Part shown: piece after piece, positions 14,616 to 62,998 of the stretch | Numbering within the stretch: position 1 is the first letter of the stretch | How the letters are laid out: every line of letters starts with the position of its first letter | From: Closterium sp. NIES-65 | Lineage: Eukaryota; Streptophyta; Zygnematophyceae; Desmidiales; Closteriaceae | Direction: 5' to 3' | Length of the DNA stretch: 64,000 nt | Assembly (NCBI GenBank): GCA_948144175.1 | Contig: CANXME010002008.1 | Coordinates: 310,001-374,000, forward strand | Notes under the pieces: model-generated | The model's input: only the letters and a program-made list of their open reading frames with translations | The model's database searches: none | What the model was told of the DNA's origin: nothing | Position numbers and translations under genes: made by a program

Positions 14616-17127
14616 ATGGAAGGCTCCACCACGCCCGTAAAATCGATACACTGCACGCCGACCAGAAGCCTTTCAGCCCCCGTTAGACCCCCTTCGGCGG
14701 GATTCTCGCCGCGACCTCCGACCTCCCCTTACTCCACCCCTTCCTCCTCCTTTTCCCTCTTCGGCGGCAAGCCATGGCGGTCGTGGGCGTGGGCCGCGAA
14801 CAGCCTCCCGCTGCTCTCCTTCTTCGCGCTCGCGCTTATAGCGACGGGACTGGTGCGCCAGCTCAACTCGCTCGCGGGGGTCGACGTTGCGACTATATCG
14901 GATGCGGAGATGGCGAGGATTCGAGTCGTGGGCGACGTGTGTGGGATGGGTCCGATGGAGTTGAGAAGCATAATGGCGCAAGCGCACGGGTGGCGGCGAG
15001 GTAAGAGGCACTGATGGGAATTCTTAAAGTGGTTCTGATGGGGTCCAATGGAGTTGAGAGGGTCATGGCGGAAGAGCATGGGTGGCGGCGAGGTAATATG
15101 CACTGACGCGCTTGTATCAATTTGAGAACTCTCGACGTGGGTTCAATGGGATCCAAAGGGGTCCAGTGGGGTCCGATGGAGCTGAGCAGTGTCATGGCGG
15201 AAGAGCATGGGTGGCGGCGAGGTAAGATGCACTGACGCTTCCTCTCTTGAACAAGCGCCCTTTCCCCAATCCCTTTTCCGCGCCATTTTTCTCCGCCAGA
15301 TCGATCCGCCATGCTCGTAACTCCCGCCTCATGGCTAAGTCCCAGCTCTATCTCTCTCCCCCACATCTTCTCTCCCTTACCCTCCCTCCCCTTCCTCCTT
15401 CCCCCTACCTCCCCGCATCCCTTCTTTCGTCCCCCTCCTCCCCTTGGTTCTGACCCCTCCCCCCCCAATGCGCCTGCTATATCGCCCCCGTCGCTCCGCG
15501 TTCCGCGCCAGACGAGCCGCGGTACTGGTACGCGGGGCGGTGGCAGACGAACCGGCAGCTCTACCTCGCCTTGGAGATCGTGCGAAAGCAGTTACCACGC
15601 GACGCCGTCGTGTGCGCGCTGGCGGCGGTGCACGGCCAAGTGCCGTGCCTGCACGCGCCGTGCGTGCTGACCCTGCACGTGCGGCCGTACTACTCGGATT
15701 TCAGCGTGCTGAAGCAGCTCGTCGAGATGGATGAGTTCGGGTTCATCAAACACTTTCGACCGCGAACTGTCCTGGATGCAGGTACGCCTAGGTTCCCGAT
15801 TGACTGATGAGTCGACTCAAAAGTCACCTCACCCTGCACATTCGCCCGTACTACTCGGATTTCAGCGTGCTGAAGCAGCTAATCGAGATGGACGAGTTCG
15901 GGTTCATCAAACACTTCCGGCCGGCCACTGTGCTGGACGCAGGTATGCGCGGGTCCCCGGTTTTACTACTCAACCGGTTGTTGCTTCCAAGTCTTGAGTA
16001 CAAGACGGCTTTATGGTTGTCGCCACACATACGGCTGTACCCTCTGGCCCTTCCGATAAGCCGTCGTCACGTTTTTCGTCCGCTGGTTTTTCTCCTCGTT
16101 CCCAGGAGCCAACGTGGGGTATGCGACGCTCATATTCTCCACCTTCTTCCCCAACGCTACTGTGGTCGCCATAGAGGCGAGCGACAAGAACTTTGAGGTG
16201 TTACGCCGTAACACGTATCGCCTGCGCAACGTTTATGCGGTGCATGCGGGGTTGTTTAACCACTCTGGGATGGTGCTGCTAAGAAATGGGACACAAACGA
16301 AGACGAGGGAGGGGTGGCAGTATGTGGTTACGCCAGTGCCCTCTAATAGCAGCGGTGATACAAACGAAGGTGATACTAACGAGCATGTTCAGGAGGGAGT
16401 AGAGGGTGAAGCGAAGAGCAGCAACAGCAGCGGAGTGGCAAGCACGGTGGCAGCTGAGGGGGGTGTTACTATCCGTGCTGTGACTGTAGGCGATGTGCTA
16501 AAGCAGGTTGGGTTGGCGAGATTTGATTTCGTGAAGATGGATATTGAGGGTTCCGAGGCTGAAGTGCTGGCCATGCCACCAATGGCATCCGACTCGGATG
16601 TGACTGAATCGAATGCAGATTCCTCTGCCTCTGGTGAAATAAGCAGCAGCAATGGCAGTGACAATAGCAGCAGCAGCAGCGGCGGCAGTAGCAGCAGCAG
16701 CAGCGGTGGCAGTAGCAGCAGCAGCAGCAGCAGGACCAGTAGCACAGCTGACATCAGCAGGAAATCTGATTGGTACGACCCTAGGCCGTGGTTGGATGAG
16801 GTGCGGGTGATGGCAGTAGAAGTGCACGACCGCATGAAGCCAAATTGCACCGTTACTGTAGAGGCTGCTACTGTAGCGCGGCAGTGGCGGCTGCTAGCGC
16901 GATCAGGAGAGTATCTTGTGCTTGAGAATGAGAGGTGGAGTGTGAGGAGGGGGAGGCGAGGAGGGGCGGCGGGGCAGAGGGCGGAAGACAGGGAGAAGTT
17001 GAGGGAGGTGCAAAGGAAGGAAGGGGAGAGGAGGAAGGAGGGGACAAAGGAGGAGGGGAGGGTGCAGCAAGGAGCGCAGGCAGGTTCAGGAGAGGGGCAA
17101 AGGGGGGAGGTAAAAGCAAGACGATAG
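14616..17127 (+). CDS. FkbM-family SAM methyltransferase, single-pass membrane protein, 558 aa
   Basis: Exons 14616-15000, 15512-15781 and 16106-17127 (1677 nt) close in frame. The product has a Pro/Ser-rich cytosolic-looking head, one hydrophobic segment (about residues 61-80) and then the catalytic part, a type II topology suggesting endomembrane location. The SAM-binding motif VLDAGANVGYAT spans the exon 2/3 junction; AIEASDKNFEVLRRN and FDFVKMDIEGSEAEVL are the other FkbM hallmarks, followed by VRVMAVEVHD. Plant members are mostly of unknown substrate; FkbM enzymes generally O-methylate sugars or small molecules. A poly-Ser/Gly insertion (about 16625-16745) splits the domain and a Lys/Glu/Gly tail ends it. 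Both exon 1 and exon 2 edges are duplicated in the following introns. Confidence 0.88.
15001..15235 (+). repeat. two extra copies of FkbM exon 1 end with splice donor
   Basis: The exon end (TCCGATGGAGTTGAG...GGTGGCGGCGAG followed by GTAAGA) is repeated near 15040-15096 (donor GTAATA) and 15170-15223 (donor GTAAGA). A palindrome-like TTTGAGAACTCTCGA lies at 15121-15135 between the copies. Confidence 0.85.
15808..15948 (+). repeat. duplicate of FkbM exon 2 3' half, joined at a TGAGTCGACTCAAAA palindrome
   Basis: 15833-15942 repeats the last ~110 bp of exon 2 (LTLHIRPYYSDFSVLKQL...TVLDAG) and its donor (GTATGC). It starts right after TGAGTCGACTCAAAA at 15808-15822. No acceptor in the right phase precedes it, so it should be skipped. 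Confidence 0.88.
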
Positions 17128-21300: not shown

Positions 21301-24146
21301 TTCAAAAGCTGCATCCAAGAGGTCTATTCCTCGGGTGTGCTCTCAACGTGATGAAAGAAGCATACATGCCATTTCTGAGCTATTTTTGATACTAGCAGGT
21401 TCGGCCAACAATACCGCTATGGGGTCACCCTGAAAAATCAAACGGTCTTTTCGAGAAGACCCTCCCTCCTGCAACACGGAATGCTCGCAAATATTCTCCT
21501 GTTGCCGGCCAAAAAAAACCAATATAACGTCACCCTGTTGCTATAATGATTTTGTTGGCCGGCAGAAGAATATCTGCAAACATTCCGTGTTGCAGGAGGA
21601 AGGGTCTTCTTGAAAAGACCGTTTTACTTTTCAGGGTGGCTCCATAGTGGCCGAGCCTGCTAGTATTGGCCAATCCACCTCACATCCACCTCAACATCGA
21701 ACCCACCTTGAGCAACACTTGTGTCAGCACGCGCTTGTTCATCGCCATCCTCTATAGGGCACGTTACAGTTCTTCACCATCCCCTCAAAGCACCCACGCG
21801 ACCCACCTCACCTCAACATCTCACCCACCTTGAGCAGCACTTCTGTGAGCACGCGTTTGATCTCATTATTCATCGCCATCCTCCGCTGCACCTCTGTCTC
21901 CTCCTCCTCGTCCTCTTCCTCATCATCACTCTCCACACCCCTTCTCCCCCCACCACCACGACCAGAGGCACCACGCGCAGCACCACCAGCGCCAGCACCA
22001 GTTCCCGCGAGAGGGCCTCTATCGTTGTACCATTTGTCCTTGGGGGGGGCTTTGGCAGGTGAGTCTGCCGCTCCTGCTGCTGCTAAGGCTGCCTTCTTCT
22101 TGATGACCTCGTCCACAAGCCATGAGGGGAGCGACTGAGGGGAGAGATGGAGACACGGGAAACGGGGAAGGGGATGAGGGAGAGGAGAAGCAGGGGGCGT
22201 TTTAGCAGCAGCTAGGGCTGCCTTCTTCTTGACGACCTCGTCCAATAACTACGAGGGGAGCGAATGGGTTAGGGAAGGGGAGGGAGGGAGAGGAAGAGAG
22301 GGAGGGAGGGGGGAAGAGGGAGAGGGAAAGGGAGAGAGAGGAAGAGGGAGAGGGGGAGAGAGGGAGGAAGGGAGAGAGGGATGAAGGGAGAGTTTAAGAG
22401 AGAAAGAGTGAGAAAGAACGTCTTTCATTATGAAAACACCAAGGCTGGAGGGCGCAGGAAAGGGCTGGAGAGGAGGGAGAGAACGGGAACGAGAACAGAA
22501 AGAGGGAAGGGGGGGAGCACTAAGACATTTGTAGTGGTAATTGGAAGCGGGGTTTGTGGGGGGGAGAACGGGGAGAGGACAAGCATACATGTAAGAGGAA
22601 TTGTTAAGGCGCCTCAACAGACGATAGCAGCTCAACTTTTTAGGTTTAACCCCAGGAGTGACAGAGACATCCCCGCCCATGTCATAAACAGCCGGATCAA
22701 AGCACATCCCTGCAAATTTGAGACGCCTTCAAACCCAAACACCCGCAGCCCACCTTCTTTGGTTTAGCGCCGGGAGTGATGGAGCCACCCCCGCCCATGT
22801 CATATACAGCCGGGTCGAAATACATTCCTGCAGATGCTGCTGCCGCCTGTGCCGCCGCCAGCACTGCTGGTGAGAGTACTGACATGTCTGCTGCCTGATT
22901 GGCTGGCGGCACGTACGCGGCTGCTGCTACCGCCCCTGTTGCTGGTGTTGCGGGTGGGGGGTATTGCGGCGGCGGGCCGGGCGGAGGGGGGAGCGCGGAG
23001 GCGTGCGCGGGGGCCGGGGCGGAGAGGAGCGGCGGAGCGGGAGGCGGCGGGGGCAGGCGCGGGTAGTGCTGGTCGTGCGCGTGCTGAGGGGGGAATCCGC
23101 CTGCTGCCGCCGCTCCTGCTGCTGCTGCTGACGCTGCAGCAGCGTCAGGCGCATTGGCATCCCCATATCCCGAGTACACTCCGTTGTACGTACTACCGGG
23201 ACCCGAAGGGGGAAATTGCGGGGGCGGAGGGGGATACTGCATCTGGGGAGGGGGGAATTGCGGCGGGTAGAACGACGCGGGATCAGGCGGGAGAGTGTGG
23301 GGAGGGAGAGGAGGGCCGTGGGAAGGAGGCGGAGGTGGGTACATGTACATTTGCTGCTGCTGCTCTTGCTGTTGCTGCTGATGTTGCTGGTGCATTTCCG
23401 GGGGGTAGTAATACTGCTGGTAATGCTGCTGATAGTACTGCTGCTGCTGCTCTTGCTGGTGCTGCTGCTGTTGCTGTTCCGCCCCTGTGCTACCGCCGTA
23501 CCCACCACCCACATACGTCCCATCAGCAGCAACATACCCCCCGTATCCACCTCCCCCGCCTCCCCCGCCCCCCGCACCCACATCCTGCAGTTGCGTTCCC
23601 GGCGCCCCCCCCCCCCGCATCCGCTGCTGCAATATCCTGCTTCGGCGGTTCCTTGTCCTCGTTAGCTGCTGCTTCTTTACTTGTTGCCGCCGCAGCTGCC
23701 GCCGCCGCCGCGTCCGCCGTTTCCTGCGCCGCCCGCTGCTCCGCCCAGAGCCGCGCCTTGGCCGCCCAGTCGAGCTCCGCCCCTGATACACGGGGTGGGG
23801 GAGTCATGAACGGTTTAAGGGAGTCGTGAACACTTCAAGGGAGCCGTGAACGTTCAAGGGAGTCATGAGGAGTTTAAGAGTGTCATAAACGGGTTGATGC
23901 ACGGATCCACGGAGCCATTAATAAGGCGATGCACGATTCACTGACACGCGACGCGGGTAATGACGCACGGAGATGGAAGCAAAACAAATCAATATGACTC
24001 GACTTGACGCACATGGAAGATAACAAGTCGTTATTGTAAAGCGATTTCGACGCATCAGAGGGACTTGGCGAAAACGATTTACGAGGCGAATCAAGAATCC
24101 GGAAGACTAGCGGAAAGACAATACCGCCAAGCTGAGTCTCCTGCGA

Positions 24147-31134: not shown

Positions 31135-34100
31135 ATGCCTCTGAGTCGTACGGCCTCGGCCGCTCTGCCTTTCCTGATAGGGATTCTGGCAGGCGCTACG
31201 TTATTGACAATTCAGCAGATTATGACCGGAGGGAACATTTCGTTCCCCATCGCTTCTTCGTCCCTCTTTGCTTTCATGAATCCAGACAACCAATCCGTCG
31301 CCCAACACGTGGGAAACCCTGATTGGCTGGCCTCTTCTGCTTCGATCTTCGCTGCTAATGAAGAGATTCGTTATAACACGGACGCAGGACCTGTAGAAAG
31401 CAAGCTGAACGTGCATCTGGTAGCACATTCACACGATGACCTGGGATGGACGAGCACCATTGACAAGTACTACGTGAGTTCCCTCTCCCAGAAGGTCCAG
31501 AAACTCCCCTGAACTGAGCCTGTTCTCGTGAAAACGATTATCACACTGTGTAACAGTCATCTGTGACTTTCAGATTGGTACACTAATGCACGATATTATT
31601 CATTTTGAAAATCTTATTGTGAATGTGTGCAGGTTACATCAGTACAGTACATTATCGAGACTGTCATTGACCAGCTTGAGGCAAACCCTGACCGCAAGTT
31701 CATTCAGGTGGAGCAGGTGAGAGTGGCCAGCGTTGGGAACCAACAGTGTGTTTTTGTAATGCTGACCATGTCAGTCTAACTAACCGTGAAACGTTTCATA
31801 CTAATCTCAGGCTAAAAGTGTTCATTAATCTCAGGAGAAACATGTCGTTGGGATATTCAACCTTTGTCAGTTTGATTCTAGGCTAACCATCCATCTCAGG
31901 CTGTTCATGTCGCACATTCAAACTTATCATGACTTCAGTTCCAGAATAGCCTTGTCACATCAAACAATCTGAGGTGAACCAGGATAATTTTCCAACGCTC
32001 CCTCCTTTCGTTCCAGGCATTCTTCTATCGATGGTGGCAGCAGCAGCGAGAGGTCATGCGCAAGAGAGTGCGTGCTCTGGTTGCATCAGGTCAACTCGAA
32101 TTCGTGTACGCCAGTTAACCTCATTCTCATTGTCATCGTTTAGAATCTACTCCTTTGATTGTTGGCTCTAATGATTTACCTGCCTTCAAAATGGTAAAGG
32201 ATACAAAAACGGATAATCAATAAGAGTGAAAGTCATCTTTCACTGAAGTTTTTTTCGTCTGAATCTGCAGTAACTTGTTGTCTATTCTATTTGCTCCTGC
32301 TTACATGACAGCAACGGAGGGTGGGTGATATACGAGGAGGCCACCACACACTACACTGACATGGCCCACCAGATGTCAATTAGGCTGCGCTTCATTCTCT
32401 CCCCTCCCCCACTCCCCCCTCCCATGCCCTCACTTGCCTCGTGCGTGCAGCAACGGAGGGTGGGTGATGCACGACGAGGCCAGCACACACTACACCGACA
32501 TGGTCCACCAGATGTCGCTGGGGCTGCGCTTCCTGCGCTCCGAGTTCAACGTCACGCCGCGCATTGCATGGCAGATTGACCCGTTCGGCCACTCGGCAAC
32601 TCAAGCCAGTCTCATCACTGCTCAGGTGGGAAGGGGAATAGGAAGGAGGGTTTCTGGTTTACCCACGTTACATAATTGTTCTTTCCATGTAGTACCTTTT
32701 GACTCCACGGACCTCCCTCTGTAAATATAACATTTCCCCTCAACTCGATCCGCCCCCTCTCCGCCTCCTCCCACCTCCCACGCGCTTCCTCAATCTTTCT
32801 AACCTGCTGTTTGTGCCTGTATACTGTTGAGCCTCGCATATGAGCAGGCTGGGTTTGATGGAATATTTTTCTCCCGGGCAGACTATCAAGATGTTGCCAA
32901 TCGACAACAAGAAAAGAAGGAAGAGTTTGTGTGGCGCGCATCTAAAACATTTGGGAAATCGGCCCAGGTAAGCACTCTTCTGCAAAGTCGGGGCTTTCAT
33001 GGCATTCTTGCATGTAAGGACTGCTGTTGTCACACCATATTCTTCTTATTCTTGTACCCACTTTCAAGAATCTTTACAACCTGGCTGTCTTGACCAGGTG
33101 TTTGGTGGGCACCTCTATTGGATGTACGATCCTCCTCCCGGGCTTGATTGTGAGGACCTTAATTTTCCACCGTTTGTCCAGGTAAGACAAAGCACATGCC
33201 GGGCATGTGTGGGGCGACATGTGTGGTATGTGTGTGGTGTGTGTGTGGTATGTGTGGAGCGTGTGTGGGGCATATGTGGGGCACGTGTCAGGCAAAGACA
33301 CATGCCAACACGCCTGTCTTTCAGTTTCCCCAATTTCCCCCGCACTTCGGCAACAGAAAAAATTCTTCTGTGATGATCTTGTCCGCCAGCTCTAAGCTTT
33401 GGTCCCTTCCTGGACTCCTCGTTACAGGATGATCCGCAATCAGGGGAGTCAAACATCCGGAAGCTTGTCGGCCTGTTTGTCCAGCAAGCTTGGGAGCAGG
33501 TATGACTGGATGCTCGTGCGTAAAGCGTCTCCTGTCAATTGCTGCACTGCAAATGTGCATGCCTGAACAACGTCTTTGTGATTCTTGAAATACATGTCCA
33601 TCCATGCTTGCTCCGACCAACCACATTATGCTCACAGCTGTGACAGCCCTTGTCAGGATGCGCTTCTTCCCTGTGCCTATCTCCAACCCCTCATGTGCAG
33701 GCAAAGGTGACGCGGTCGAACCATGTGATGTTCACCATGGGGAAGGACTTTGCCTACTCCAACGCCATCATGTGGTTTAAGAACATGGACAAGCTCATTC
33801 ACTACGTCAACCTGGTATGCTGGAGTGGCACGGTGTGGTGTGATGCAATGCGGTAGGGTAATGCTTCATGTGGTTCAAGAACATGGACAAGCTCATTCAC
33901 TACGTCAACCTGGTATGCTGGAGTGGCACGGTGTGGTGTGATGCAATGCGGTAGGGTAATGCTTCATGTGGTTCAAGAACATGGACAAGCTCATTCACTA
34001 AGTCAACCTGGTCAGTGGCATGTTGTGGTGTGGTGTGGTATGGTGTGATGCGACGTAGGGTATGGTATGTGAGGGGAGTCGACGCTTTTTGGGGGGACTG

Positions 34101-37100
34101 TGAGGGGAGTCGACGCTTTTTGGGGGGGCTGTGAGGGGAGTCGACGCTTTCTGGGAGGGCTGTGAGGGTAGTCGACGCTTTTTGGGGGGGCTGTGAGGGG
34201 AGTCGACGCTTTTTGGGGGGGCTGTGAGGGGAGTCGACGCTTTTTGGGGGGGCTGTGAGGGGAGTCGACGCCTTTTGGGGGAGCTGTGAGGGTAGTCGAC
34301 GCTTTTTGGGGGGGCTGTGAGGGGAGTCGACGCTTTTTGGGGGGGCTGTGAGGGGAGTCGACGCTTTTTGGGGGGGCTGTGAGGGGAGTCGACGCTGCCC
34401 TGGGGCTTGAGTCAACTCAAAAAGGCCCATCTTCTTGTGCAACGTGTGTTCATCCACCCCCTCACCCCTGCCGGGATGGTCGGGTCAACATCCTCTACTC
34501 GCTCTGCCATGCCATGCCATGCCATGCCATGCACGTCCCCTCTGCAACGTGTGTTTTCATCCACTCCCTCACCCCTGCCAGGACGGTCGGGTCAACGCCC
34601 TCTACTCCACGCCCTCAATTTATCTGGACGCCAAGCAGCAAGCTGAGGAGACCTGGCCGGTCAAGACTGGCGACTTCTTCCCGTGAGTAGTGCATGCATT
34701 GCAGTGCTCATGCTAATGCAGCCTGCTCTTGAGGCAAGGCAGCATGCTGACAAGACTCGTCGTCCTCCTCCTTCTCATCCTCTTCCCCCCTACCTCCCCA
34801 CCCCGTTCTTTCCTCCTCCCCCATGCATCTATGCCGACGCACCGCACGCCTACTGGACCGGCTTCTACTCTTCCCATCCAGCCTTCAAGCGCTACGTGCG
34901 CGTGTGCAGCGTTTTCTGAGATTTGAGACGTCTTAACACCCTTCCACCCCCTTCTTTTCCCCTCCCCACCCACACCCCCACCATGCAGATATGCTGATGC
35001 ACCGCACGCCTATTGGACCGGCTTCTACTCCTCTCGCCCAGCCTTCAAGCGCTACGTGCGCTCCTGCAGCGCGCTGCTGCTAGCAGCAAGTATTCTGGAA
35101 GCAGCAGTGGGGCGAGAGGCCCTGCAAGCATGGGGAGGCGACACCGACGGGATGAATCTTGTGGGATCTGGCGCTGGCAGAATGATGGTCGCGAGTTTCC
35201 ATCCCTCGGAGGCGCCTAGTGTGGCAACTGGGGAGGGTGGGAGTGGCGGCGGAGACAGCAATGCTGGTGCAGGATACGGGTCTGCTGCTGCTACTGGTGC
35301 CGGTGGTGGTGGTGGTGGGGATAGTAATGGTGGTGTTCCTGGTGCTGGGAGCCGGGAGGCTCGGGCCGCGTCGACAGCATCGCTGGGGGAGGCAGTGGCA
35401 GTGGTGCAGCACCACGATGCCATCACAGGCACGGCCCAGCAGCACGTGAATGATGACTACACACTCCGCCTGCACCGAGCAGCACAGGAGGTGAGAAACT
35501 GGGAGGTTGGAGGTGTTGGAAGGAGTGGGAGAAGGGGGCTGAGATGACAGAGCAGCACAGGAGGTGAGGAATTGGGAGGTTGTTTGGTGGTAAGCGCACT
35601 CAGACCAAGGAATCGCACACTATGCATATCCCTGAACCCCTTTTCCACAGTTTTCCCTCACTTGTTCCCCCACCTTGTTTCTCCTGTTCCTCCTCTTTTC
35701 CCCAGCCTGAAGCTCTGACTCTGTTTTCCCCTCACCTGCCCTCCTCTCCCCACGCCAGGCCTCCACTGTTCTCACCAGCGCCCTGGCATACCTCATTCTG
35801 CACCCGCCGCCTCCTCTTTCTCCCTCGCCTCCCACCGGCACCAACTCCTCTGCACCAGGTCCCACCCATGCGGCGCCTGCTGCCACTCCCGCCAATAGGC
35901 CTGCTGCAGCTGGCACCGGTGCTGCTGCCACCGCTGCCGCCGCCGCCGCCACTGCTCCTAGTGTCACTCCCCAGGAACCTGCCACTGCTGGTGCGGATAC
36001 TGCTGCTGCTGGTGACGAGCCTGCTGCCCCAGATGCGGCTGTGCCTGCAAACACCAGCGCAACGCCACATCGTGCTCCTCTTGAAACACAGGGCTCATTG
36101 CAGGAAGAAGGTATTAACAGGGGGAGGCGGTTGCAGGAGAAGCCGAAGCTGCTGCTCGAGACGGTGAGTGGGGATTGAAGTGTGGTTGGTGGGAGGATTG
36201 GTGATGGAAGAGATTGGTTTGGTGTCGAGCCTCTTTCTTGATGAAGAGCTGCATGTTTCAGCAGCTCTTACACCCTTGATGGGACTGTTTTCCTTGTCAT
36301 CTCTCCCAGATGTCTGGAAACTTCTGCTTTAAACTTGTGCATGTTTCAACAGAGAATTCCCCTTCCTACTCCCTCCTCCTCTCCCCTTTTTCCTGCTCCC
36401 TGCAGTGCCCTCTGCTGAACATCTCCTTCTGCCCACCCTCGCAGTCTGGTCTTGAACCCGGCAAGACCCTGGTGAGTCCTCAATCAGTCAATCTTCCTGG
36501 TAACCTCTACCCGTTTTAAGTTGACCCCCTAGCGAGTTGACGCTCTGGTGAGTCCCACCACCTCATCTGGTGCGTTGTGCATGGGGCACGTTGCTCATCA
36601 TCAGGATTGTGACTGTTAGCTGTGCTTCAACAGCCGATGCTCCAGCCAGCTGACGGCACACTGCTGCCATGCTGTGCCATGCTGTGCCATGCCGTGCCAT
36701 GCCATGCCATCCCACCACCGCTTGTCTCATCCCCAACCACCACCACTCCCCCCCATCCTCCCTTGCATCAGGTGGTGGTCGCCTTCAATCCCCTTGCCTG
36801 GGGTCGCACTGAAATCATCCGCATTCCAGTAAGCTCCTATCTCCAGCATCCTTTTGAGTTTCAGCAGGTAATATTCAAGCCATGAGCCCTTCCCTGTGTT
36901 AGCTCTGATTTCCGAAAACCACCTGCTTTCAAGTGCTAACTCACTATACTCCACTGTTCCTCGCACCCTCCCACCCTTTCCCAGTATCATTCTCTTCCCC
37001 TTCCCCTCCCATCCCACATTCCCCTCGTCTCCTTCTTTCAGTACCCTCTCCTTCCTCACGCCCTCCTGCCATCCGCTCTCTGCTCTCCACTCCACTCCCT

Positions 37101-43100: not shown

Positions 43101-43675
43101 AACATTGTTTCTTTGCCCGTAAACCGGAGATAAAGTCACTTCCCTCCCTTGGGCGTCCAGGTGGTGGGATCACTCCGCTTCGCAGTGCTGCCAGACACAC
43201 GGGCACGGCCAGGCACACCCCCACAGCAGGCATCAGGCGGGGCAGCAGCAGGGGCCTTCTGGCGGAGAGATCACTCCCAGAGGATGCTGTCCCCGCTGCA
43301 GCTCGCTTTTGCTGTCGAGGTGAGCAGTGACTCCTGAGTTGGCTCAAAGGTCGCAGCAAGTATCAGGCGGGGCGGCAGCGGGGGCCTTCTGGTGGAGAGA
43401 CCACAGCCAGCGGATGCTGTCCCCTCTGCAGCTCGCTTTCGCTGTCGAGGTGAGAAATGGGCTGTTAGTCCACTCGAAAACAGGTGAGAGATCTCTTCTG
43501 AGTCGACTCAAAGGAGGTGAGGGATGGCTTCTGAGTTGACTCACATGTCACAGCAGGCATCAGGCGACCACACTCAGTGCCTGCTCTCTCCCCTGCAGCG
43601 TTTTCTCTGTCTAGGTGAGAGATTGAGGTTTGTGTGGTTGGGAAGGGGAGGGCAAGGGATAGGGGAGAAGGGGGG

Positions 43676-46280: not shown

Positions 46281-49200
46281 ATGGCGAGCCTAGAGTCGAC
46301 ACCAGCGGCGGGATATGCGGAAGACAGGGCGAGGAGCTCATCACTCCCTCGCGGCGAGTCAGAGCCGGGATCCGACCGAAGGTGATTATTGAACAGAACC
46401 GAAAGGGGGATCGGAGAATCTTTTGCGAGTTAGGCATTTATGCGGAATCAAATTATCCATTCTGGTTTGCAATTCTCTGCGATTTTCCGGATCGCTAATC
46501 AGTAACTAGGGTTATCAGAGGGAACCATTATACAAGCTTCTTATTCATCCACCTTTCTGTTTCCTCAGACGTCAACGGAGACCTAGCAGCGGCATGTCCA
46601 CGTCAGCGATCGAGCAGGTATCATGGGAGATTAAGCTGGGGGTTGGTTATATCAGATATTGCATTTCAGCAACCTTCTATCTCCACACCTATCTGTTTCC
46701 TCAGGAACCAATGGCGACCGAGCAGCGGGCTGTCCACATCAGCGATCGAGCAGATTTCACGGGAGATGAAGCTTTGATAAAAATTTAACCAGATACCACA
46801 CTCAAACATCCCTCCCCTCCACCGTCGCACCTATCTGTTCCCGCAGGACCCGGCGGAGTCCCAGCGGCGGGCTGTCGACGTCAGCGATCGAGCAGATGTC
46901 GCGCGAGGTGAAGCTGATGGGGTGGCTGTACAAGCAGTCTCAACTTTAAAAATCCGGAACACCCCCCTTCTCCCCCCTCCTCATGCCTACCTGTTCCGCA
47001 GGACCCGGCGGAGACCCAGCGGCGGGTTGTCCACGTCAGCGATCGAGCAGATGTCGCGGGAGGTGAAGCTGATGGGGTGGCTGTACAAGCAGTCCAAGTC
47101 GCGGCCGTTCGGCCACCACTGGGCGCGCCGCTACTTCGTGCTGCGCGCGCAGCGCATCAGCTACTTCCGCAGCCTGCCCTGGCAGCACGAGGTGCGCGAT
47201 GGAGGAGGGGGGGGCAGAGAGGGGAGGGGATGGGATCCGGTAACGAACTCTGAGAACGTCTCAAACCTAGAGACTCCGTGCTGCGCGAACAGCGAATCAG
47301 CTTTTGAGTCGCCACAAAAGTCGTCTATCAAGGCGCCCAAAAGTCGTCTCAAACCTAGAGACTCCGTGCTGCACGCACAGCGCATCAGCTACTTCCGCAG
47401 TCTGCCATGGCAGCATGAGGTGCGCGCGTAGCCCGGGGGAAGGAAGGGGGGGGAGGGGGAGATGGGATGAGGTAATGAGTTCTGAGAACGTCTCAAACCT
47501 AGAAACTTCATGCTGCGCGCGCAGCAAATCAGCCACTCCCGCAGCCTGCCGTGACAGCACGTGTACGCGTGTGGTGGAAGGATAGGGCTACTACTTGTGA
47601 GAGGATAGCTTCTGGGGCAATACGAGCTGACCGCTTTGCACCATCCCTTGGTCCCCCTTGGGAAGACTAATCAACACCTTCCCCAACCCAACCATTTCCC
47701 CCAAACTTTCTCCCAACTTTCTCCATATCCCCCTCCCCATTCTCCCCTCTCCCTTTCCCCCTCCCCCTTGCCCCCTCCCCGCTCCTCCCCCCCAACGCCC
47801 CCTTCTCTCCCGCATCAATGTTCCCTGCCAAACGTGTCGCACAGATTCCAGTGAAGGAGTTTGATCTGACGCCCAGATGTCGTGTGGAGGACACAGGCCG
47901 GATTTCCACCAACACCAAGGTACGAACCAAGGTCACCAAGGTCACACCCGCACTGCCTGTTTCTGTGCTGCACGTTCGTGTGATGCTTGCGTGTGCGCTG
48001 CCTGTGTTTGCGCTGCTTATGAAACTCTGGAGCTTTATGCCTCAATAGCTCTGACCCTTTCAGGGCTGCTCCTGACATTCCCCTGTATTCTGCACCCTCT
48101 ACTGTTTCTGTCATTCCCCTGTTGCTTTTTTTTTGTCATTCGCCAGGAGCTCTACACCTTTTGTATACACCCAGAGCTTCCCAAGCCGTGTTTGGTGGGT
48201 GCACTTGCTAAGGACACACTCTTTATTGTGTAATGCACTCTACAGCGGTGCCAAACATACGCTGCCTCGAACGACTTTAAGCTCATATGTGCCGAGCCGC
48301 CTTGCGCCTTAATCGAAGCGCGATTTCTTTGCCCTGCTTATGGTCTTCTGACCCTATTGATCTTCTAATGCTTTAACACATACTCTGTCATCCGTTATTC
48401 CCCCTTTGATTGACACTATCCATGCATCTGCTGTCGCTGAATTCTCATGCCTCTCTCGTGCTCCTCTGTGCCCTCCCGTACTCCTCTTTCCCCTCCCGTA
48501 CTCCTCTTTCCCCTCCCGTTCTCCTCTTTCCCCTCCCGTACTCCTCTTTCCCCTCCTGTACTCCTCTTTCCCCTCCCGTACTCCTCTTTCCCCTCCCGTA
48601 CTCCTCTTTCCCCTCCCGTACTCCTCTTTCCCCTCCCGTACTCCTCTTTCCCCTCCCGTACTCCTCTTTCCCCTCCCGTACTCCTCTTTCCCCTCCCGTA
48701 CTCCTCTTTCCCCTCCCGTACTCCTCTTTCCCCTCCCGTACTCCTCTTTCCCCTCCCGTACTCCTCTTTTCCCTCCCGTACTCCTCTTTCCCCTCCCGTA
48801 CTCCTCTTTCCCCTCCCGTACTCTGCTGCACGTCCTATGTGCCCATCCCGTGCCCCATCGTGTTCCAGGTGGGAACCAAGGACCCAGAGCTAGTGGCGGT
48901 GTGGATGCAAGCCATTCGGGAGACAATAGAACATGTGAGCACAGCAGACAATAGAATGGGTCATGTGAGCACAGCTGTAGACGGTTTGGCTTGGTGATGC
49001 ATGTTGTGCGTTTACTAGGCGCCTCAGAGCTAGTGGCGGTGTGGATGCAATGCAAGCCATCCGAGAGACAATCGAACATGTGAGCATTGGTGGTGCATAT
49101 TGTGCATCTATTAGGCGTCTCAAAGCTCGTGATGGTGTGGATGCAAGACGTTCGGGGGACGATAGAACATGTGAGCACAGCAGCGGAAGAATTAGTGGTT

Positions 49201-50098: not shown

Positions 50099-53000
50099 AT
50101 TTTCTTACTTCCCCCCAGCCCCCCCCCCCCATGGAGCTAGGTCTGATGCTTGAGGCCATGATGGCAAAGCAGTGCGGTGCAGTGCGGTGAGTAAATCGAA
50201 CTCTCTTCGCCCCCATGGAGCTGGGTGGCATGCTCGAAGCCATGGTGGTAATGCGCAGTGCAGTGCGGCTCAATGCAGTGCAAGGCAGTGCGCTGCAGTG
50301 CAGTGAATAAACTGAACTCTCGTCCCCATTGCCCCCAGGGCCTCCTATGGAGCTGGGCGGCATGCTCGAGGCCATGGTGGCAATGCGCAGTGCGTCAACG
50401 GCGTCAGGCATCGCATCCGACGGCTCCTGGCGCCTCATCAAGCTATCCAACGGTGAGTAATGGCCCTGTCCATCCAGTGGTAAGGGCAGGCGGGCAGATG
50501 TGGCCGCAGCCAGTCACCGGTGAATGAAGCATCGCACACTGCACATGCCTTTTGAGTTGTCAGCTCGAAAGTCACCCTGTCACTGGTGAATGAAGTATTT
50601 CACACTGCACACGGCATATGAAATCGTTCCATTTACACGTCCATCCATTCCCCATAGCCCCATTCCCAGGCCATTCCCCATGGCCCATTCCCCATGGCCC
50701 ATTCCCCATGGCCCATTCCCCATGGCCCATTCCCCATGGCCCATTCCCCATGGCCCATTCCCCATGGCCCATTCCCCATGGCCCATTCCCCATGGCCCAT
50801 TCCCCATGGCCCATTCCCCATGGCCCATTCCCCATGGCCCATTCCCCATGGCCCATTCCCCATGGCCCATTCCCCATGGCCCATTCCCCATGGCCCATTC
50901 CCCATGGCCCATTCCCCATGGCCCATTCCCCATGGCCCATTCCCCATGGCCCATTCCCCATGGCCCATTCCCCATGGCCCATTCCCCATGGCCCATTCCC
51001 CATGGCCCATTCCCCATGGCCCATTCCCCATGGCCCATTCCCCATGGCCCATTCCCCATGGCCCATTCCACAGGGCTGCGTTTCTTTGAGGAGTTGAACG
51101 AGGAGCGCGGGCAGGCGGGCATGTGTGGCAGCCTGCCGTGTCTGAGCGCCGTGGGAACGGTGGACGCCCCCAGCGATGCCGTCTTTCGACTCGTGCTCGA
51201 CCTCTCCTCCTCGCGCAACGAGTGAGCATCTTGCTCCTGTCACCCCTAAGCCCCGTGAACTCCCCTTGCTGCTTTGGTAAGTCTCTGAGCAAGTTGACTT
51301 TTGAGTCGACTCAAAAGCATCTTGCTCCTGTCACCCCTCAGCCCCGTGAACTCAACTCCCCTTGCTGCTTTGATAAGTCTCTGAGCATCAAGATGCTCAC
51401 TCCCGTCATCTTGACGCTCTCTCTGATGCCACACCGACTGCGTCCAATGCCGGTTCTGCCCTCTGCCATTGCCCTGACCCCATCCTCCTTCTCTTGCCCT
51501 TTCGTGTACCGACCCTCTCGTTCACCAGGTGGGACGTGGCATACGGAGGAGCACGAATGGTAGAAGCTCAGGACGGTCACACAGACTGCATCCACTACCG
51601 CTTCCGACCGCTCCCAGTCGGCTTCGGCCCCTTCACCCTCACAGCGCGCGACGTGTGCCTGCGGCGCTACTGGCAGCGCACGGCCGACGGGTGCTACGTG
51701 GTGCTCTATCAGTCCATGGAGCACCCCCTATGCCCGCCTGTCATGGGCTGCGTTCGCGCCAATCTCACCTACGGAGGGTTTATCATCGCCCCAGCGGGGC
51801 CGTCGGCGATCGGACGGTCGGTAGTGATGCACGTGTTGCAGATGGATGCAAAGGGGTTGCTGCCGATGTGCAGCGGTGTTGCGACCGAAGTGCATTTTTA
51901 CCTGCTGTCGAGAGTTGCAGGCATTCGGGAGTTTTTCGCGCAGACGAGGGGGGACTCGCTGGCTGCGCTGCTGGGTCTGAGGGACACGCAGCAGGCTACA
52001 GCTGCTGCTACAGCCGCGGCTGTAGCGGCTGCAGAAGGGAGGGAGCTTGGAGGGGGTGGGAGGAAGGGCAGCAGGCGGGATCGGGAGGACGGGCGGATCG
52101 GGCCGATACCAGAAGGGGGAGGGGAGGGGTTTGATGAGGTGGAGGGGGTGGGACGAGAGAGAAGGAGAGGCAGCAGTGGGGACGTTATGGGTGGTGAGTT
52201 CAGCGGTAGCGATGCCGGGAGCACAGTTTCAGAGCCCTTACCAGGCACTAGCAGTTTCTTTGGAGCAAGAGGAGCTGGAACAGCAGCAGGAGACGCAGCA
52301 GTTGCTGCTAAGGCTCTCCTGACTGAAACTCTCCCTGTGGCCTCTCCTCGGTTCTGGCAGCTAGGTTCCCGACCCTCCACCGGGTCTCGACTAGCTGGTT
52401 CGGCAAGGGCGGCAGGTTCGGTAGACCCTTGGGCATGGGCGTACAAGACTGGAAACCTGGCCCGGGGGTCGCCGATGGGGGGGATTAACTGCTGGAGCGA
52501 GGCGGAGGTTCGGAACTTTACAGTGCGGTCGAAGAGCTATTTGAGGGATAAGATGAAGCAGAGTGCGGGGCAGCCGGGGATGGCGCTGGTGGCAGTGGAT
52601 TGGCTGAAGCGCGTTGAGAGGATTGACCATGTGGTGGAGCTGAAAAGGACTCCTGTGCATGTGAGTTGGGCGGGCATCTGTGCGTGTGAGTTGGGCGGGC
52701 ATCTGTGCATGTGAGTTGGGCGGGCATCTGTGCATGTGAGTTGGGCGGGCATCTGTGCATGTGAGTTGGGCGGGCATCTGTGCATGTGAGTTGGGCGGGC
52801 ATCTGTGCATGTGAGTTGGGCGGGCATGTGTGCATGTGAGTTGGGCGGGCATCTGTGCATGTGAGTTGGGCGGGCATCTGTGCATGTGAGTTGGGCGGGC
52901 ATCTGTGCATGTGAGTTGGGCGGGCATCTGTGCATGTGAGTTGGGCGGGCATCTATGCATGTGAGTTGGGCGGGCACCTGTGCATGTGAGTTGGGCGGGC

Positions 53001-54652: not shown

Positions 54653-54690
<38 letters not shown>

Positions 54691-55202: not shown

Positions 55203-55233
<31 letters not shown>

Positions 55234-56763: not shown

Positions 56764-56783
56764 ATGCGTGAACGGTATTATCC

Positions 56784-56815
<32 letters not shown>

Positions 56816-59800
56816 CGCTTTCCCGGGCGCAATTTTCGAGAGGGGCGCCTTCGCAGTCCCAACAATCAGTCAATGCAGTCAACGCGTCGGTCAACTCGTT
56901 CAATGCGGTCAATGCGCCCACAGTAGGGGCAGGAAACGTCACCTCCGGCTCCCTCGGGATGCCTTACGATCAGTTTCGCGACATCCAACGACTATGGGAG
57001 TCGCAAGGGTCGCATCGTGCTGTCGCACAAGGAAGCGCTGTCGCACAAGTTAGACCTTTCGCACAACACGAAACGGGAACAAACAACACCCCCCTAGGCC
57101 AAGCTACAGGGTCCTTTGGCGGGTATGTTTCCGCTGATGGTCCTATTTCCCCGTCCGGAAGCATGGTGGGCGGAATGAGTGGCGGAATGGCGAGGGGGAG
57201 CAGTTTTGGCGAAGGGATTGGGGGAAGGCGGGGGGGAATCGCCACGCCCGCGCTGCCTGTTGGAGTTATTGGTCCTCCAGGCCTGGGGGGCGGAAGAAAT
57301 ACGGGGGTTGCAGCAGCAGGGGGAGGCGTAGGATACACCGCGGACAGCGCAACGATGATAGGCGCGGGGATGGCGGAGGGGAGGCTGGAAAGCTTGCTGG
57401 CGGAGGCGCTACTTGGGGGAGGGGCTTTCCAGGCGCTGGCGGGAGGAGGTACTTTCCAGCGGCAGCCTGCAGCTCCCCAGGTGTCACCTGCAAGCAGGGA
57501 GGTGGGATCTGGTGCAGGTGGGAATATGGCATTACTTGAGCTGATGAGAATGTCAGGGCTCGCTAGTAGCCTCCCTCTCAACCGTACTGTATCAAGCAGC
57601 ACCGGGAGCGGATACCACTCAGCTAGCCTACCAACCAACTTCGACATGACTTACGCTGGTACAAGGAATCAGCCGCTGCAGTCTTTCTACGGGCAGCCCG
57701 GGCAGATGGCAACGAATTCCGAGCGGGGGAACCAAGATCGCGGGCAGCAAGCTACTATGAGAAGCTGGGGGGCGGTTGGGGGGTTGGGTTTAGAAGGAGT
57801 GACGGTAGGTGAGGGGTTAGGGTTGACGGCTGGTGAGGGGCTGGGACTGACGGCGGGCGAGGGGTTGGGGGTTTTAGCGGGCTGCCACGACCTGTCTGCA
57901 GTTCTGGCTGCTGCTGCCGCCGCCGCTGGTGCCAGCAGCGCACATGGCGCCGCTAGCAGCGCACAGGGTGGCGCTAGCAGCGCACATGGCGGCTTCCCCA
58001 GGTCTGGGCTAGGAGGGGGAAGCACAGGGGGAGGGTACGTGAGCGGGGGCATGGTGGGCGGGGGTTGTGTGAGCGGAGGGGGCGGGGTGGGGGAGGAGGC
58101 GCGGGGATGGCGGAAGGGGAGAGCGATGGGGAGGGGTCGGGGGAGGAGGAGGAGGGCGGAGATGGCGCCCCTCGCGCCAGCACCAACGCGAAAGGCCAAT
58201 GGACCCCGGTATGTGCGTGCGCCGCAAGGTGCATTAGTTGGTGGTACGTGCCTGCATTGGCTTTTGAGTTGACTCAAAAGTCGCGCCAGCACCAATGCCA
58301 AAGGCCAGTGGACCCCGGTACGTGGCTGTGTCCGTCGCAAGACTAGTGATTGATGGTACGGGCCTGCATTGATTCTTGAGTCGACTCAAAACTTACGCCA
58401 GCACCAACGCGAAAGGCCAATGGACGCCGGTACGTGCCTTTGTCGCAAGCATAGCTGATGCTACGTGCCTGCATTGCAGGGTAGGGGTTGATAATCGACC
58501 ATGCCTGTGTTGCAGGGTAGTGCTCGATGGTGCGGAGCGTGTGTGCACTGCCAGGCTTGGACTATGGTAGAGGAGTGTAATAGTAACAGCTTACTTGCAA
58601 GGCTCCTCTCTTCCGCTCCCGCCTATCGCCTCCCCTCTCCACACCGGCTTTTCAAGTCGACTCAAAATTCGCCTCCCCTCTCCACACCGGCTTTTCAAGT
58701 CGACTCAAAATTCGCCTCCCCTCTCCACACCGGCTTTTCAAGTCGACTCAAAATTCGCCTCCCCTCTCCACACCGGCTTTTCAAGTCGACTCAAAATTCG
58801 CCTCCCCTCTCCACACCGGCTTTTCAAGTCGACTCAAAATTCGCCTCCCCTCTCCACACCAGCTTTTCAAGTCGACTCAAAATTCGCCTCCCCTCTCCAC
58901 ACCGGCTTTTCAAGTCGACTCAAAATTCGCCTCCCCTCTCCCCTTTTCGAGGTTCTCCCTTCCCGCCCTTGTTCCCTCACCCCATCCCCCTCCCACCTCC
59001 CACCTCCCCTCCCTTCTCACCCCCCACTGTTGGCCCAACAGGAGGAGGACGAGATTCTGAGGAGGTTGGTGGAGAGGGGGGGGGCGCGGCGGTGGTCCGC
59101 CATAGCAGCGCAGCTCAAGGGGCGCGCGGGGAAGCAGTGCCGTGAGCGGTGGCACAACCACCTGAAGCTGGGGATCAAGAAGGACGCGTGGACGGAGGAC
59201 GAGGAGGAGACGCTGATAGAGGCGCACAAGCGCGTGGGGAACAAGTGGGCGGAGATTGCGAAGCTGCTGCCTGGGCGGACGGATAACAACGTGAAGAATC
59301 ATTGGAATTCGACTGTGAGGCGGAAGGAGGACGTGGGGCGGACCGGGGGGAAGGTTGGGGGGAAGCCCACGCTGCTGCTGAGGTATATACAGTCGTTGAA
59401 AGGGGGGAAGGATGGGGGCGGGGGGAAGGGGGGGAAGGGCGCGGGGGGGAAGGATGGGGGGCGGGGGAAGGAGGCTGCAGGGAAGGCGGAAGAGGGAGGG
59501 GAGGAGAAGGGTGGAGAGGGGGAGGAAGGAGAGGAGGGAAAGGGAGATGGGGGAAAGGACGGATGGAAAGAGAAGGGAGGTGGGAGAGAGGGAGGAGGAA
59601 CGGGAGAGGAAGGGGAGGAGGGAGAGAAGGGAGAGAAGGGAGAGAAGGGAGAGAAGGAGAGAGTAAAGGGACAGGAAGATGAGCGTGAGATAGTGGAAGG
59701 CATGCAGGGAGGGAGGGAAGGGAGGGAAGGGATGGCAGATGGTGGGGATGGGGATGGGGATGGGGATGGGTGTGGGGATGGGGATGGGGACGGGAATGGT

Positions 59801-60568
59801 ATTAGGGATGCAGGGCACAGGGAGAAAGAAGGAGAAGGGCCAGCTTTAAGAAGAGAGGAAGAGAATGGTTTGGGGAAAGACAAAAGAGAGAAGACAGAAG
59901 AGACACGGGCAGGCGAGGAAAGGGGAAAAGAGCTACAGGCAAGGGAGGAGAGGGCAGGAGAGACGCGGAAAGACAAGGAGAGCATAGAAGAGGAACGAGC
60001 AGGAGAGGAGACCGAAGAGATGGAAGTTGGGGAGAAGGAAAGGAGGGAAGGGACGGAATCAGGAGGAGGGTTGGGGGACGGAGAAGGGAGAAAGGTGGAT
60101 GCAGAAGTAGCACAGGGGCCCAACAATGGTAGAGAGGCAAGCAGTGACGCTGCGAATGGAGCAAATGAAGGGAAAGGAGGGGTGAGGCAGTCCCATGTAA
60201 ACGGGAGCGAAGGAGCAGAGGAGCAGAGGAGCGAAGTAATGGGAGAGGAGCAGATGCGTCTGACAGAAAAGGTGGGGCCTGACACGGGCAGACAGACGCG
60301 GGCAGGAAAGGAGGAAGAGAAGGAGCAGCAGACGTCTGAGTTGCCTCAACAGACAAGGGCAAGGAAGGAGGAGAAGCAGGGAAAGGAGGAGAAGGAGGAA
60401 GAGGAGGAGGAATGGAAGGGAAAGGAGGGGAAGGAGAGGAAGGAAAGGCAGGAGAGGAGGAGGACGGGAGGAAGAGGAAGGTCCGAGGGTGGAGCCAGGG
60501 CAGCAGAGGATATAGGTGATGCAGTCTCCATGGACATTGATGTGAGTGGAGAGGAGGGGGGAAGAGGG

Positions 60569-60607
<39 letters not shown>

Positions 60608-62998
60608 GAATGGGTAAACGATTTAAAAAACCTGATAATTTCATGTGTCCCATCCAACATCATGTATCCCATCCAACATCAGTCCTCATCCTTGCACGCT
60701 TACTCTGCTGACTATTTCCGTTCCCTCCCATCCCCTCCCTTACCCCTCGAATCCTTCCCGTGCCCCATCAGACCCACCACGTCACGTCCCACAGCAGCAG
60801 CAGCCTTTCCATTCGAGGCTCGTCAGCGACAGGGAGGGCAGCAGCACCAGCAGCAGGAAGCGCAGCAGCACCAGCAGCAGGAAGCGCAGCAGCACACACA
60901 CAAACAGCAGGAAGCCCAGCAGCACACACACAAACAGCAGGGAGGGCAGCAGCACAAGCGGTTCAAGGAGAGACCACCACACCTGCAGCAACAGCAGCAG
61001 CTTCTTCCTCTCACGCTCTTTCCTCCAGCCATCCGCGTTTTGAGACGACTCGACACTCGATCAGTGCAGACACTGCCTCAGCAGCGTCGCCCTTACGCTC
61101 GCGTTCTTTCAGCAATGCTCGCCTCTCCTCCTCCCATGTCCCTTTTGAGTCAACTCAAAACGCAGAGACTGCTGCTGCAGCAGCGTCGTCCCTCCGCTCG
61201 CATTCTTTCAGCAATACTCGCCTCCCCTCCCAAGTGACTTCTGAGTCGACTCAAAACGCAGAGACTGCCGCAGCAGCAGCAGCATCCTTGCGCTCGCGTT
61301 CCTTCGGCAACGCACATCTCTCCTCCTCCCGTGTCCCCAGTTTCGAGGCGCCTCAAAATTCCTCACCCTCAAAATTCCTTACCTCCCATGTCTCTCTCAG
61401 AGCTGCTTCGTTCCCCCGCGCTCCCGCTTTCCTCCCGCCCACCTGGCCCCCCTCGCCTTTTGAGACGTCTCAAAATCCGTCCTCCTGGCCCCTCTCCCGC
61501 TCGCTCCCAAACGCTCCCACAGCCAACACTACTGCTTCCGCTGCTGCTGCCGCCGCCACCGCTGCTGTTGCCACTGCTGCCGCTGCTGCCATTGCTGCCA
61601 CTGTTGCCACTGCAGCCGCTGCTTCAAGCGAAGCTACTCCTGCTGAGGCTAGTGTAACAACTGGGGCTGCACCTGCCGTTGCTCTTACAGCGGAGAGGCA
61701 CAGGGAAGCAAACAACAACACACAGCCACACCACGGCCCCGGTGTGTTTGACTTTGTCCCAAGGAGACAGCACACAGGTGCAAGGGAGGCGATGCTGGGA
61801 CAGGAGCATGCAGCCCAAGCGTGTCTAGGGCAGATGCAGCCCACAGGGGAGAGGCACAGGGAAACAAACCCACGGCAATTCCAAGGCCCCAGTGGGGTTG
61901 ACCCAAGGAGACAGCCCACAGGTGCAAGGGAGGCGATGCTGGGACAGGAGCATGCAACCCAAGCGTGTCTAGGGCAGATGAGCACTGGGCAGCCATTGGT
62001 GGAGCAGGAGCAGATGTGTGTGGGGCAAACATTGACAGCACAGACGAGTGTGGGCGACCAGAGGGATCTAGCAAAGGCTATGGGCGACCAGAGGGAGCTA
62101 GCGAGGGCCATGCTTCAACTGGACGCACTCTCCTCTGCTGGCCTGCTCATGGGCCTCCCTGCTGCTGCCGCTGCTCACTCTGCTGCTGCTGCTACTTCTT
62201 CTACATCTGCTGCTGCTCCGTGCTCGTCTGCCCCCACTCGTGCCCCTCCTGCTTCTCCCTCCACCGTCTCCTCCCCCCGTTCTGCCCCCTCCTCTCGCCC
62301 CCCATTCCCTCCCTTTCCTTCCCCAGCACCGCTCTCCACCACATTCCCCCGCTCTTTCTCCACCCCTCAAGGCCGAATCCCTGCTTTTTCCCCCTCTTTG
62401 TCATCTCTCACTAATTCTCTCCCAAATACACTCCAGCCTATCAACCCTTTCCCGCACAACCCTTCTCTTCCTCTCCCCACCTCCGCTTCTATCTCTGTTC
62501 CCTCTACCTCCTCTGCTGCACCCACCAATCACCCCCTCCCCTGCCTCTCTCGCTTCGCCACAGTGTCAGCTTCCGACCAATCAGCAGCCGGCGGTCTGAC
62601 CACCCGGGCAGCTGAAATTGCGAGTGGGGTGCAAAATCTTTTCGACGCGCTCATGCGCTCGGACATCCTCCCTGCCCCCTCCGTTCCATCCTTCTCATCT
62701 CAACCGTCCATTCCTGATGCTACGCGAAGATCGGCACCGTTGACCCAGCATCCACATCCCCATCTCCCATCCCCATACCATCCTGCCCCAAGTCAACCTC
62801 CCGCCTTCTCTACCCTCCCGCCTCCCCTCACATCCTCTTCCCGAGCTCCTTGGGCTGGGGGGAAGAACCCAGGGATGGCAGGAGGGGAGGTAAACGTGTC
62901 TAGTGTGTCAACCACAGGGCGTCTAGAGGGCGGTGAGCTGTGGACTGGTAGAAGCAGTGGCACCACCGGATCTGCTGGTAGCGCTGCTGCTGCTGGTG

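Follow-up and report, generated by a model that had tools for sequence, protein, structure and literature searches.

What does a short palindrome mark when it recurs across the genes of an alga and stands, in most cases, between two copies of the same neighbouring sequence? The question is raised by a stretch of 64,000 nucleotides (C1710:310001-374000; hereafter the window) from the genome assembly of Closterium sp. NIES-65, a single-celled desmid of the Zygnematophyceae, a lineage that is sister to land plants. The window holds nuclear protein genes with introns and, dispersed among them, copies of an 18-bp palindrome, TTTTGAGNNNNCTCAAAA (hereafter P), with arms TTTTGAG and CTCAAAA around a 4-base centre. 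Small tandem duplications contribute importantly to new DNA, to exon-edge change, and to coding repeats, and the events that make them rarely leave a signature. Here we find that most P examined mark a duplication, that many duplications carry no P, and that insertion of P is very probably coupled to duplication of its target.

Abundance and centre of the palindrome

All data come from one Closterium assembly (874,075,685 bases in 2,400 contigs). The window contains 30 matches to P with up to 3 mismatches, seven of which belong to one array (58650-58925), whereas 100 dinucleotide shuffles gave 2.48 ± 1.64 matches and at most 7. Four matches are exact (51299, 58262, 61143, and 61458), and those at 27353, 29670, and 30702 look like chance. 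An earlier note on this DNA had claimed a dispersed palindrome in more than twenty copies; the family is real and larger than claimed. Most of the coordinates given there hold, those at 15121, 49019, 49113, and 50550 turned out to be decayed or broken versions of P, and a P of the AATT type at 11752 was absent from that first list. When every 7-base palindrome arm of the window was counted with no sequence set beforehand (up to 1 mismatch between arms), TTTTGAG ranked first at a spacing of 4, with 9 loci. Across 264 kb, namely the window plus a 200-kb sample of other stretches, TTGAG or CTCAA lies inside 83 of 119 near-perfect 18-bp palindrome loci. Genome-wide, exact P with any centre occurs 30,327 times, against 4 for the reversed pattern, and its exact TCGA form 13,080 times, against 0 for the reversed control. 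The shuffles, the arm scan, and the genome count reject chance or base composition as the source of P; a frequency equal to that expected from composition, which the earlier note had named as the outcome that would speak against its claim, is not what the genome count gave.

The 200-kb sample was drawn from the contigs listed first with P (C6, C9, and C10) and is P-rich; its sites carry L-prefixed labels (e.g., L015:9299) that give stretch and position. Twelve other contigs, sampled at 4 kb each (48 kb), held no exact P and one P with 2 mismatches, with about 1.7 exact copies expected from the genome average, and the density of P across the genome may be uneven. The assembly also contains some regions two- or threefold at 99.7-100% identity (C1710/C1953, C2251/C1702, and C6/C347/C1658), as haplotypes or recent duplicates would appear. 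A 15.5-kb locus of the window recurs on C1953 with 8 substitutions and one 2-bp indel in about 3.6 kb, excluding an offset at one end, and one C6 locus is present three times at 100%. Because of these near-identical copies, counts of P sites are not counts of independent events. Beyond Closterium, the exact TCGA 18-mer was found in 4 stretches of prokaryote contigs (257 billion bases), about the chance level by arithmetic, and had 0 matches in viral contigs, which rejects a spread of P in prokaryotes or viruses. A search of the window against Rfam at the gathering score gave 0 matches.

The centre had been described as variable and largely palindromic. There is indeed more than one centre, but it is not free. 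Allowing up to 2 mismatches, the 264 kb contain 119 sites, which fell to 91 once 28 near-identical array units were removed: TCGA occupies 35, ACGT 15, GCGC 13, and AATT 6, so that four tetramers make up 69 of the 91, with 1 in 16 expected if the centre were free (p ~1e-63). Among the remaining 22 centres, 19 are one change away from one of the four, and several off-type centres (TTGA, TCAA, and ACAT) show the change expected at CpG. The same arms with a CCGG centre occur only 4 times genome-wide, set against the thousands of the TCGA form. These counts reject a free spacer between the arms, and the centre of P is one of four discrete self-complementary tetramers plus decay. Arm changes at 79 sites comprised 3 matching double changes (about 1 expected) and 70 one-sided ones; maintenance of the palindrome by compensating changes is thus weak at most, and inserted copies of P mostly decay freely. 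In 49-bp arrays at L043 and L044 (C2251 and C1702), nine P units are present in both near-identical copies, and single units differ at the centre (TGGA and TCGG).

Duplications at the palindrome

A site was scored as bearing an abutting repeat when one copy of a direct repeat ended no more than 12 bases before P and the other started no more than 12 bases after it, with a score of at least 15. With array duplicates and P within about 300 bases of a stretch end left out, 88 sites remained; they were compared with 600 positions drawn at random from DNA that is not in tandem arrays and has no P (up to 2 mismatches) closer than 250 bases. Such repeats flank 68 of the 88 P and 109 of the 600 random positions (Fisher p = 5e-28), and the 18% background indicates that this DNA is rich in local duplications. 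The proportion is 36/40 for exact P and 52/61 for P with up to 1 mismatch, 10/15 in the window and 58/73 at other loci, about 77% for the 71 non-array P, and 94% for the 34 TCGA sites. That copies of P abut the endpoints of tandem duplications, as the earlier note had it, is therefore borne out in the window and in the wider sample alike. Cruder nulls that we had used earlier, with random positions including minisatellites, gave p ~0.04-0.1 for strong sites taken singly, because the minisatellites inflated those nulls. The association also holds in reverse: 33 spaced local duplications were collected irrespective of P, and the spacer of 12 contains P at up to 4 mismatches, compared with 13 of 660 control windows.

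The flank copies at 30 clear loci range from 20 to 194 bp (median 66.5) and have no fixed length. At ten young loci (net score at least 80% of copy length) with closely matching copies on both sides, only P plus a few bases lies between the copies. At L015:9299, ACTTTTGAGTCGACTCAAAAGTC stands between two identical 60-bp copies (60/60), and at L017:3337 identical 23-bp copies (23/23) surround the same 23 bases. A GCGC-type P at L015:4156 is followed, beyond the second copy and after the same flank end, by an ACGT-type P at L015:4215, which implies that a second event reused the place with the other type.

For the 68 repeat-bearing P, we joined the left flank, one copy, and the right flank in silico and sought paralogs in the sampled DNA. 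A match spanned the joint for 12 of the 68, some being merely array units or the same locus, and four were aligned. In the L012 paralog of L016:8971 the sequence is uninterrupted, the copy is present once, and P is missing. The paralogs of L015:9299, in L016 and at L015:9780, lack P and continue directly from the copy to the right flank; on the left they have diverged too far for an alignment. Of the suggestion that P is the target or product of an enzyme that cuts or recombines, the second half is retained, as the product of a break-and-rejoin process, but these two clear P-free single-flank paralogs argue against a pre-existing target.

P is itself what remains, at the centre, of longer palindromes (about 40 bp for the TCGA family, about 50 bp at some ACGT sites), the outer ends of which are often lost. 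Outward from the tip, the TCGA family reads CTCAAAA-GTCACCTCGTG, followed for a variable distance; matches of at least 3 bases to this outer master occur on the left at 18/40 sites and on the right at 15/40, with less than 2% expected by chance. Among the 19 listed young loci of the TCGA family, 15 have a flank copy that starts no more than 3 bases from the end of this match on both sides (no control was run for this agreement), and 4 do not fit. At L028:369, for instance, 5 and 11 bases match the outer master and 5 and 11 lie outside the copies; at L016:8971, 7 and 2 match and 7 and 1 lie outside. Overlaps at the outer joints are small. At some ACGT sites (4/16) the outer arms agree within the locus (at least 75% over 12 bases), compared with 0.4% between loci, and several of the longer ACGT-family arms end in CACGTG-like sequence. 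On the right of L023:4018 the half-unit TCGACTCAAAAGTCACC occurs two times in succession, as would result if a template were copied to one and the same end more than once.

The core of P itself is seldom truncated. In the 264 kb, the opposite arm (up to 2 mismatches) accompanies 100 of the 106 half-sites that bear the tip; since two-armed exact sites count from both sides, this corresponds to 6 one-armed among roughly 70 sites. Pairs of TTTTGAG and CTCAAAA at single spacings below 40 pile up only at 4 (54 pairs), and the 32 pairs in the 40-119 bins are attributed to neighbouring P in arrays. The spacing peak and the two-armed half-sites reject the arms as inverted ends of a longer element, none of which was seen in the 264 kb at spacings scanned up to 600 bases; nor was there a sign in that DNA of a longer foldback element with these ends. 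A 20-bp array at L018:7340-7500 consists of TTTTGAGGCACTTTTNCGAC-like units, each half a P of the GCGC type with no other arm, and ends in a nearly complete P. The window also holds a foldback at 21414-21650, with 101-nt inverted arms that are 83% complementary and 35 nt apart, which looks like an ordinary MITE (miniature inverted-repeat transposable element) and not like P.

The P sites of the window and the copies beside them are as follows.

11752-11769: AATT-type P, TTTTGAGAATTCTAAAAA, between identical 15-bp copies at 11729-11743 and 11773-11787
15667-15801, forward strand: FkbM-methyltransferase flank copy 1, exon 3' end and intron start, contiguous with the real exon; protein LTLHVRPYYSDFSVLKQ
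15805-15822: P, TGATGAGTCGACTCAAAA, inside the 26-bp spacer GACTGATGAGTCGACTCAAAAGTCAC
15828-15962, forward strand: FkbM flank copy 2, intronic, 85% identical to copy 1
22628-22715 and 22745-22832, reverse strand: exon-edge copies of a minus-strand gene, with a degenerate P at 22716-22733 and another at 22602-22619
34405-34422: P, GCTTGAGTCAACTCAAAA, at the end of a 31-bp array, with no direct repeat abutting both sides
34771-34911 and 34932-35071, forward strand: alpha-mannosidase-like exon-edge copies, with a degenerate P at 34921-34938
43224-43329 and 43354-43459 (region to 43630), forward strand: exon-edge copies, with P at 43332-43349, 43496-43513, and 43529-43546
About 43463-43480: a more degenerate P-like stretch; short 3'-end copies lie between the P of this region
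47133-47301, 47361-47533, and 47489-47587, forward strand: copies of an exon 3' end and intron start in the EDR2-like gene
47302-47319: P of the EDR2-like gene, with P-like stretches at 47250 and 47481
50507-50611, forward strand: duplicated intron segment of about 40 bp around a widened P, TTTTGAGTTGTCAGCTCGAAA, at 50550-50570 (score 27, 39 bp)
51226-51291 and 51317-51387, forward strand: EDR2-like intron copies around an exact P
51299-51316: this exact P, TTTTGAGTCGACTCAAAA
58175-58490, forward strand: MYB gene, three copies of an exon end and intron start, parted by P at 58262-58279 and 58374-58391
58626-58941: 43-bp array of 7.3 units with TTTTCAAGTCGACTCAAAA, holding seven P
61038-61475, forward strand: five in-frame P in a putative coding exon, between diverged segments of roughly 100 bp

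The FkbM methyltransferase and MYB genes have Pfam matches, and the alpha-mannosidase-like gene is one that we take to belong to that family from its peptide. The exon at 51494-52714 encodes an EDR2-like START protein, with identities of 99% to Closterium sp. Naga37s-1, 85% to NIES-68, and 98% to NIES-53 (over 40% of the query). Many P of the window are intronic and lie beside copied exon edges, as in the FkbM, alpha-mannosidase-like, EDR2-like, and MYB genes, and the intronic copies retain much of the reading frame. In five exon-copy pairs (the MYB and minus-strand pairs were not counted), differences fall on codon positions 1:2:3 as 11:10:33, near the 1:1:2 expected of one constrained and one neutral copy. 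The five in-frame P at 61038-61475 encode FETTRH, FESTQN, SESTQN, FEAPQN, and FETSQN, with centres ACGA, TCAA, TCGA, GCGC, and ACGT; we take them for a series of separate events, each of which brought its own P, and not for the expansion of one unit. Protein searches for coding orthologs with which the in-frame P units of this MYB exon could be compared found none. The units of the arrays at 58626-58941 and L026:8134-8302, by contrast, are uniform and seem to have been multiplied later.

Other features lie close to these sites. Between 46533 and 47094, an intron 3' end and exon start of the EDR2-like gene recur head to tail, in several diverged copies that are about 137 bp apart and have no recognisable P, from which it follows that exon-edge duplication also happens without the palindrome. 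The spacer of another P-free exon-edge duplication (37621-37660) holds a different hairpin, ACTCTT...AAGAGT around a T run. The 31-bp array at 34068-34396 (10.6 units, each containing AGTCGACGCTTTTT) ends at the P at 34405. At 51220-51402, the duplicated segment starts with GAGTGAGCATCTTG, and the reverse complement of this start, CAAGATGCTCACTC, lies just after copy 2. A run of 35 G at 60572-60606, inside the MYB gene and probably intronic, is a possible weak point of the assembly.

Possible routes to the palindrome

On balance, we favour an explanation in which P is the mark of a recurrent event: a palindrome enters a staggered break, and about 20-200 bp of the target are duplicated in the process. 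How P would be made in such an event is a more tentative matter. Two-ended templated extension, to which we give somewhat less than an even chance, is one possible route. Nicks on opposite strands, 20-200 nt apart, would free two 3' ends, each of which would pair over a few bases with a short template of one kind, either RNA or single-stranded DNA. In the TCGA family, the template end would be NCGN'-CTCAAAA-GTCACCTCGTG, and an RNA template would start with NCGN'CTCAAAAGTCACC. Both 3' ends would be extended to the very end of the template; the identical tails, ending in a self-complementary tetramer (TCGA, ACGT, GCGC, or AATT), would pair tip to tip and be sealed; and filling in of the long overhangs would leave the target duplicated. 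Two nicks at a variable distance, with fill-in, are proposed because duplication length varies, and extension from two ends because it would be expected to give a fixed tip, a self-complementary tetramer, variable ends, small joint overlaps, two-armed inserts, and a doubled half-unit. The process would resemble twin-primed reverse transcription with run-off.

Several observations weigh against this explanation. At the threshold used, 20 of the 88 P have no abutting repeat. Conversely, P (up to 4 mismatches) is missing from the spacer of 21 among the 33 spaced duplications, although some, such as that at 34771, hold a degenerate or displaced P; duplication hence does not need P. Two of the four aligned empty-site candidates are clear, L027:2811 is compatible at about 70% identity, and L012:2528 aligned with no clear outcome. 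The P-free sites are paralogs, 70-78% identical, and not alleles; no allele differing in P was found, and the near-identical copies of three comparable loci all carry P. Agreement of the outer arms within a locus is hardly seen in the TCGA family (1/40) and not at all in the GCGC family (0/13). Some ACGT-family sites, such as L028:4603 and L018:5291, combine long palindromic arms with weak direct repeats and would be equally well explained by snap-back copying or by a hairpin element. The length of truncation on the left correlates with that on the right (r = 0.48), a relation that would not be expected if the two ends were primed independently. Finally, no template gene, RNA, or enzyme turned up, and the genome was not searched for them.

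Ready-made palindromes might instead be captured at the break: double-stranded or hairpin DNA of about 40-50 bp, abundant in the nucleus, would be end-trimmed and ligated into staggered breaks, fill-in duplicating the target. Such capture would leave a kept centre, variable outer ends, and small overlaps at the joints, and opposing nicks are described as giving tandem duplications in other organisms (PMC8355091). However, trimming should then enter TTTTGAG, which it seldom does, as the six or so one-armed sites among roughly 70 attest; there is no known source of such DNA; and the self-complementary tip tetramer in every family and the doubled half-unit at L023 are left unexplained. We therefore hold this reading to be unlikely.

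It is more doubtful still that P is a minimal mobile hairpin element, similar to REP (repetitive extragenic palindromic) sequences or MITEs, that is moved by a transposase and has unusually long and variable target-site duplications. The high copy number, the four sequence families, the longer palindromic versions, and the target duplication with P-free sites would all suit such an element. Transposases, however, are associated with duplications of fixed length, whereas those seen here span 20-194 bp, and in P the centre is conserved and the ends are not, with no longer element sharing its ends in the 264 kb.

Least probable of all, and very improbable in itself, is that P came first, as a fragile palindrome at which replication stalling or cutting later duplicated the neighbouring segment: palindromes are unstable and 20 of the 88 sites have no direct repeats, but a typical two-copy locus has a single P, which lies between the copies, where duplication of a P-containing segment would give two, the duplication is missing as well from the two clear P-free paralogs, and one array has five P with at least three centre types, so that P seems renewed at each step.

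If P is synthesised at break ends, as in two-ended extension, the alga would hold an enzyme and a template that write a fixed sequence into breaks, and this would help to explain the intronic exon-edge copies and in-frame coding repeats in a sister lineage of land plants. It is possible, if somewhat short of probable, that desmid nuclei have an undescribed insertion process that writes a palindrome outside-in to a fixed centre and duplicates the target each time, that has left its mark at tens of thousands of places, and that may have fed the growth of introns and coding repeats. Through the P that they carry, thousands of duplications in a single genome could be located, assigned an age, and classified by centre. 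To our knowledge, no element class has been reported to write a fixed sequence into breaks.

Comparison with known systems

As far as is known, the junctions of staggered-break duplications are clean or carry varied filler, with no fixed sequence. A related staggered-break case was reportedly described by Vaughn and Bennetzen in 2014 for natural insertions in rice. In mammalian cells, small tandem duplications have been attributed to opposing nicks and staggered-break repair with fill-in by Pol alpha-primase, with consecutive rounds at one site (PMC8355091). As in these duplications, tens of bases between the break points are duplicated at P, the direct copies meet at the break, and the two clear P-free paralogous sites have a single copy. 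In contrast to them, the junction at P carries one of four fixed palindromes, and P is found in 30,327 exact places.

Palindromic repeats are also said to occur in algal mitochondria other than that of Volvox carteri. In the organelles of V. carteri, short palindromes (11-77 nt in the mitochondrion) with loops of 3-5 nt, often TAAA or TTTA, are described in intergenic DNA and introns, often nested, and in its nucleus palindromes make up about 0.06% of the DNA analysed and are presumed to be inert organelle transfers (PMC2670323). The main text of that paper contains no word beginning with "duplicat". P is likewise a short algal palindrome, but unlike these organellar repeats and their TAAA or TTTA loops, it lies in a window of nuclear genes and has TCGA, ACGT, GCGC, or AATT at its centre. 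Closterium genomes are described as showing extensive gene copy-number variation, in a paper whose main text has no word beginning with "palindrom" (PMC10407611). No nuclear element like P was found among the matches listed in the open-licence literature searched.

Bacterial REP sequences, which are associated with RAYT transposases, are hairpins of 20-40 bp with a tetraloop and a high copy number; they are not known to make a target duplication and are prokaryotic. P shares with them the form of a high-copy short hairpin, and differs in its target duplication and eukaryotic host. In the twin priming of LINEs (long interspersed nuclear elements), two target ends are primed on one RNA, giving an inverted joint at microhomology and a target duplication. 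P is like the insertions made by target-primed reverse transcription of LINEs and SINEs (short interspersed nuclear elements) in the variable length of its target duplication, to which P-free sites are the counterparts; unlike a LINE, P has no element body and no poly(A) or other 3' tail, and it has the same tip each time in a symmetric product. MITEs and foldback elements are short, non-coding, inverted-repeat elements of high copy number, with fixed short target duplications and conserved ends. Their small size, non-coding nature, copy number, inverted repeat, and target duplication are all found in P, whereas its conserved centre, its variably missing outer ends, and duplications that vary from 20 to 194 bp are not known in them. 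A transposon keeps its ends, and a P insert keeps its middle. What is new here relative to known tandem duplications is the fixed joint.

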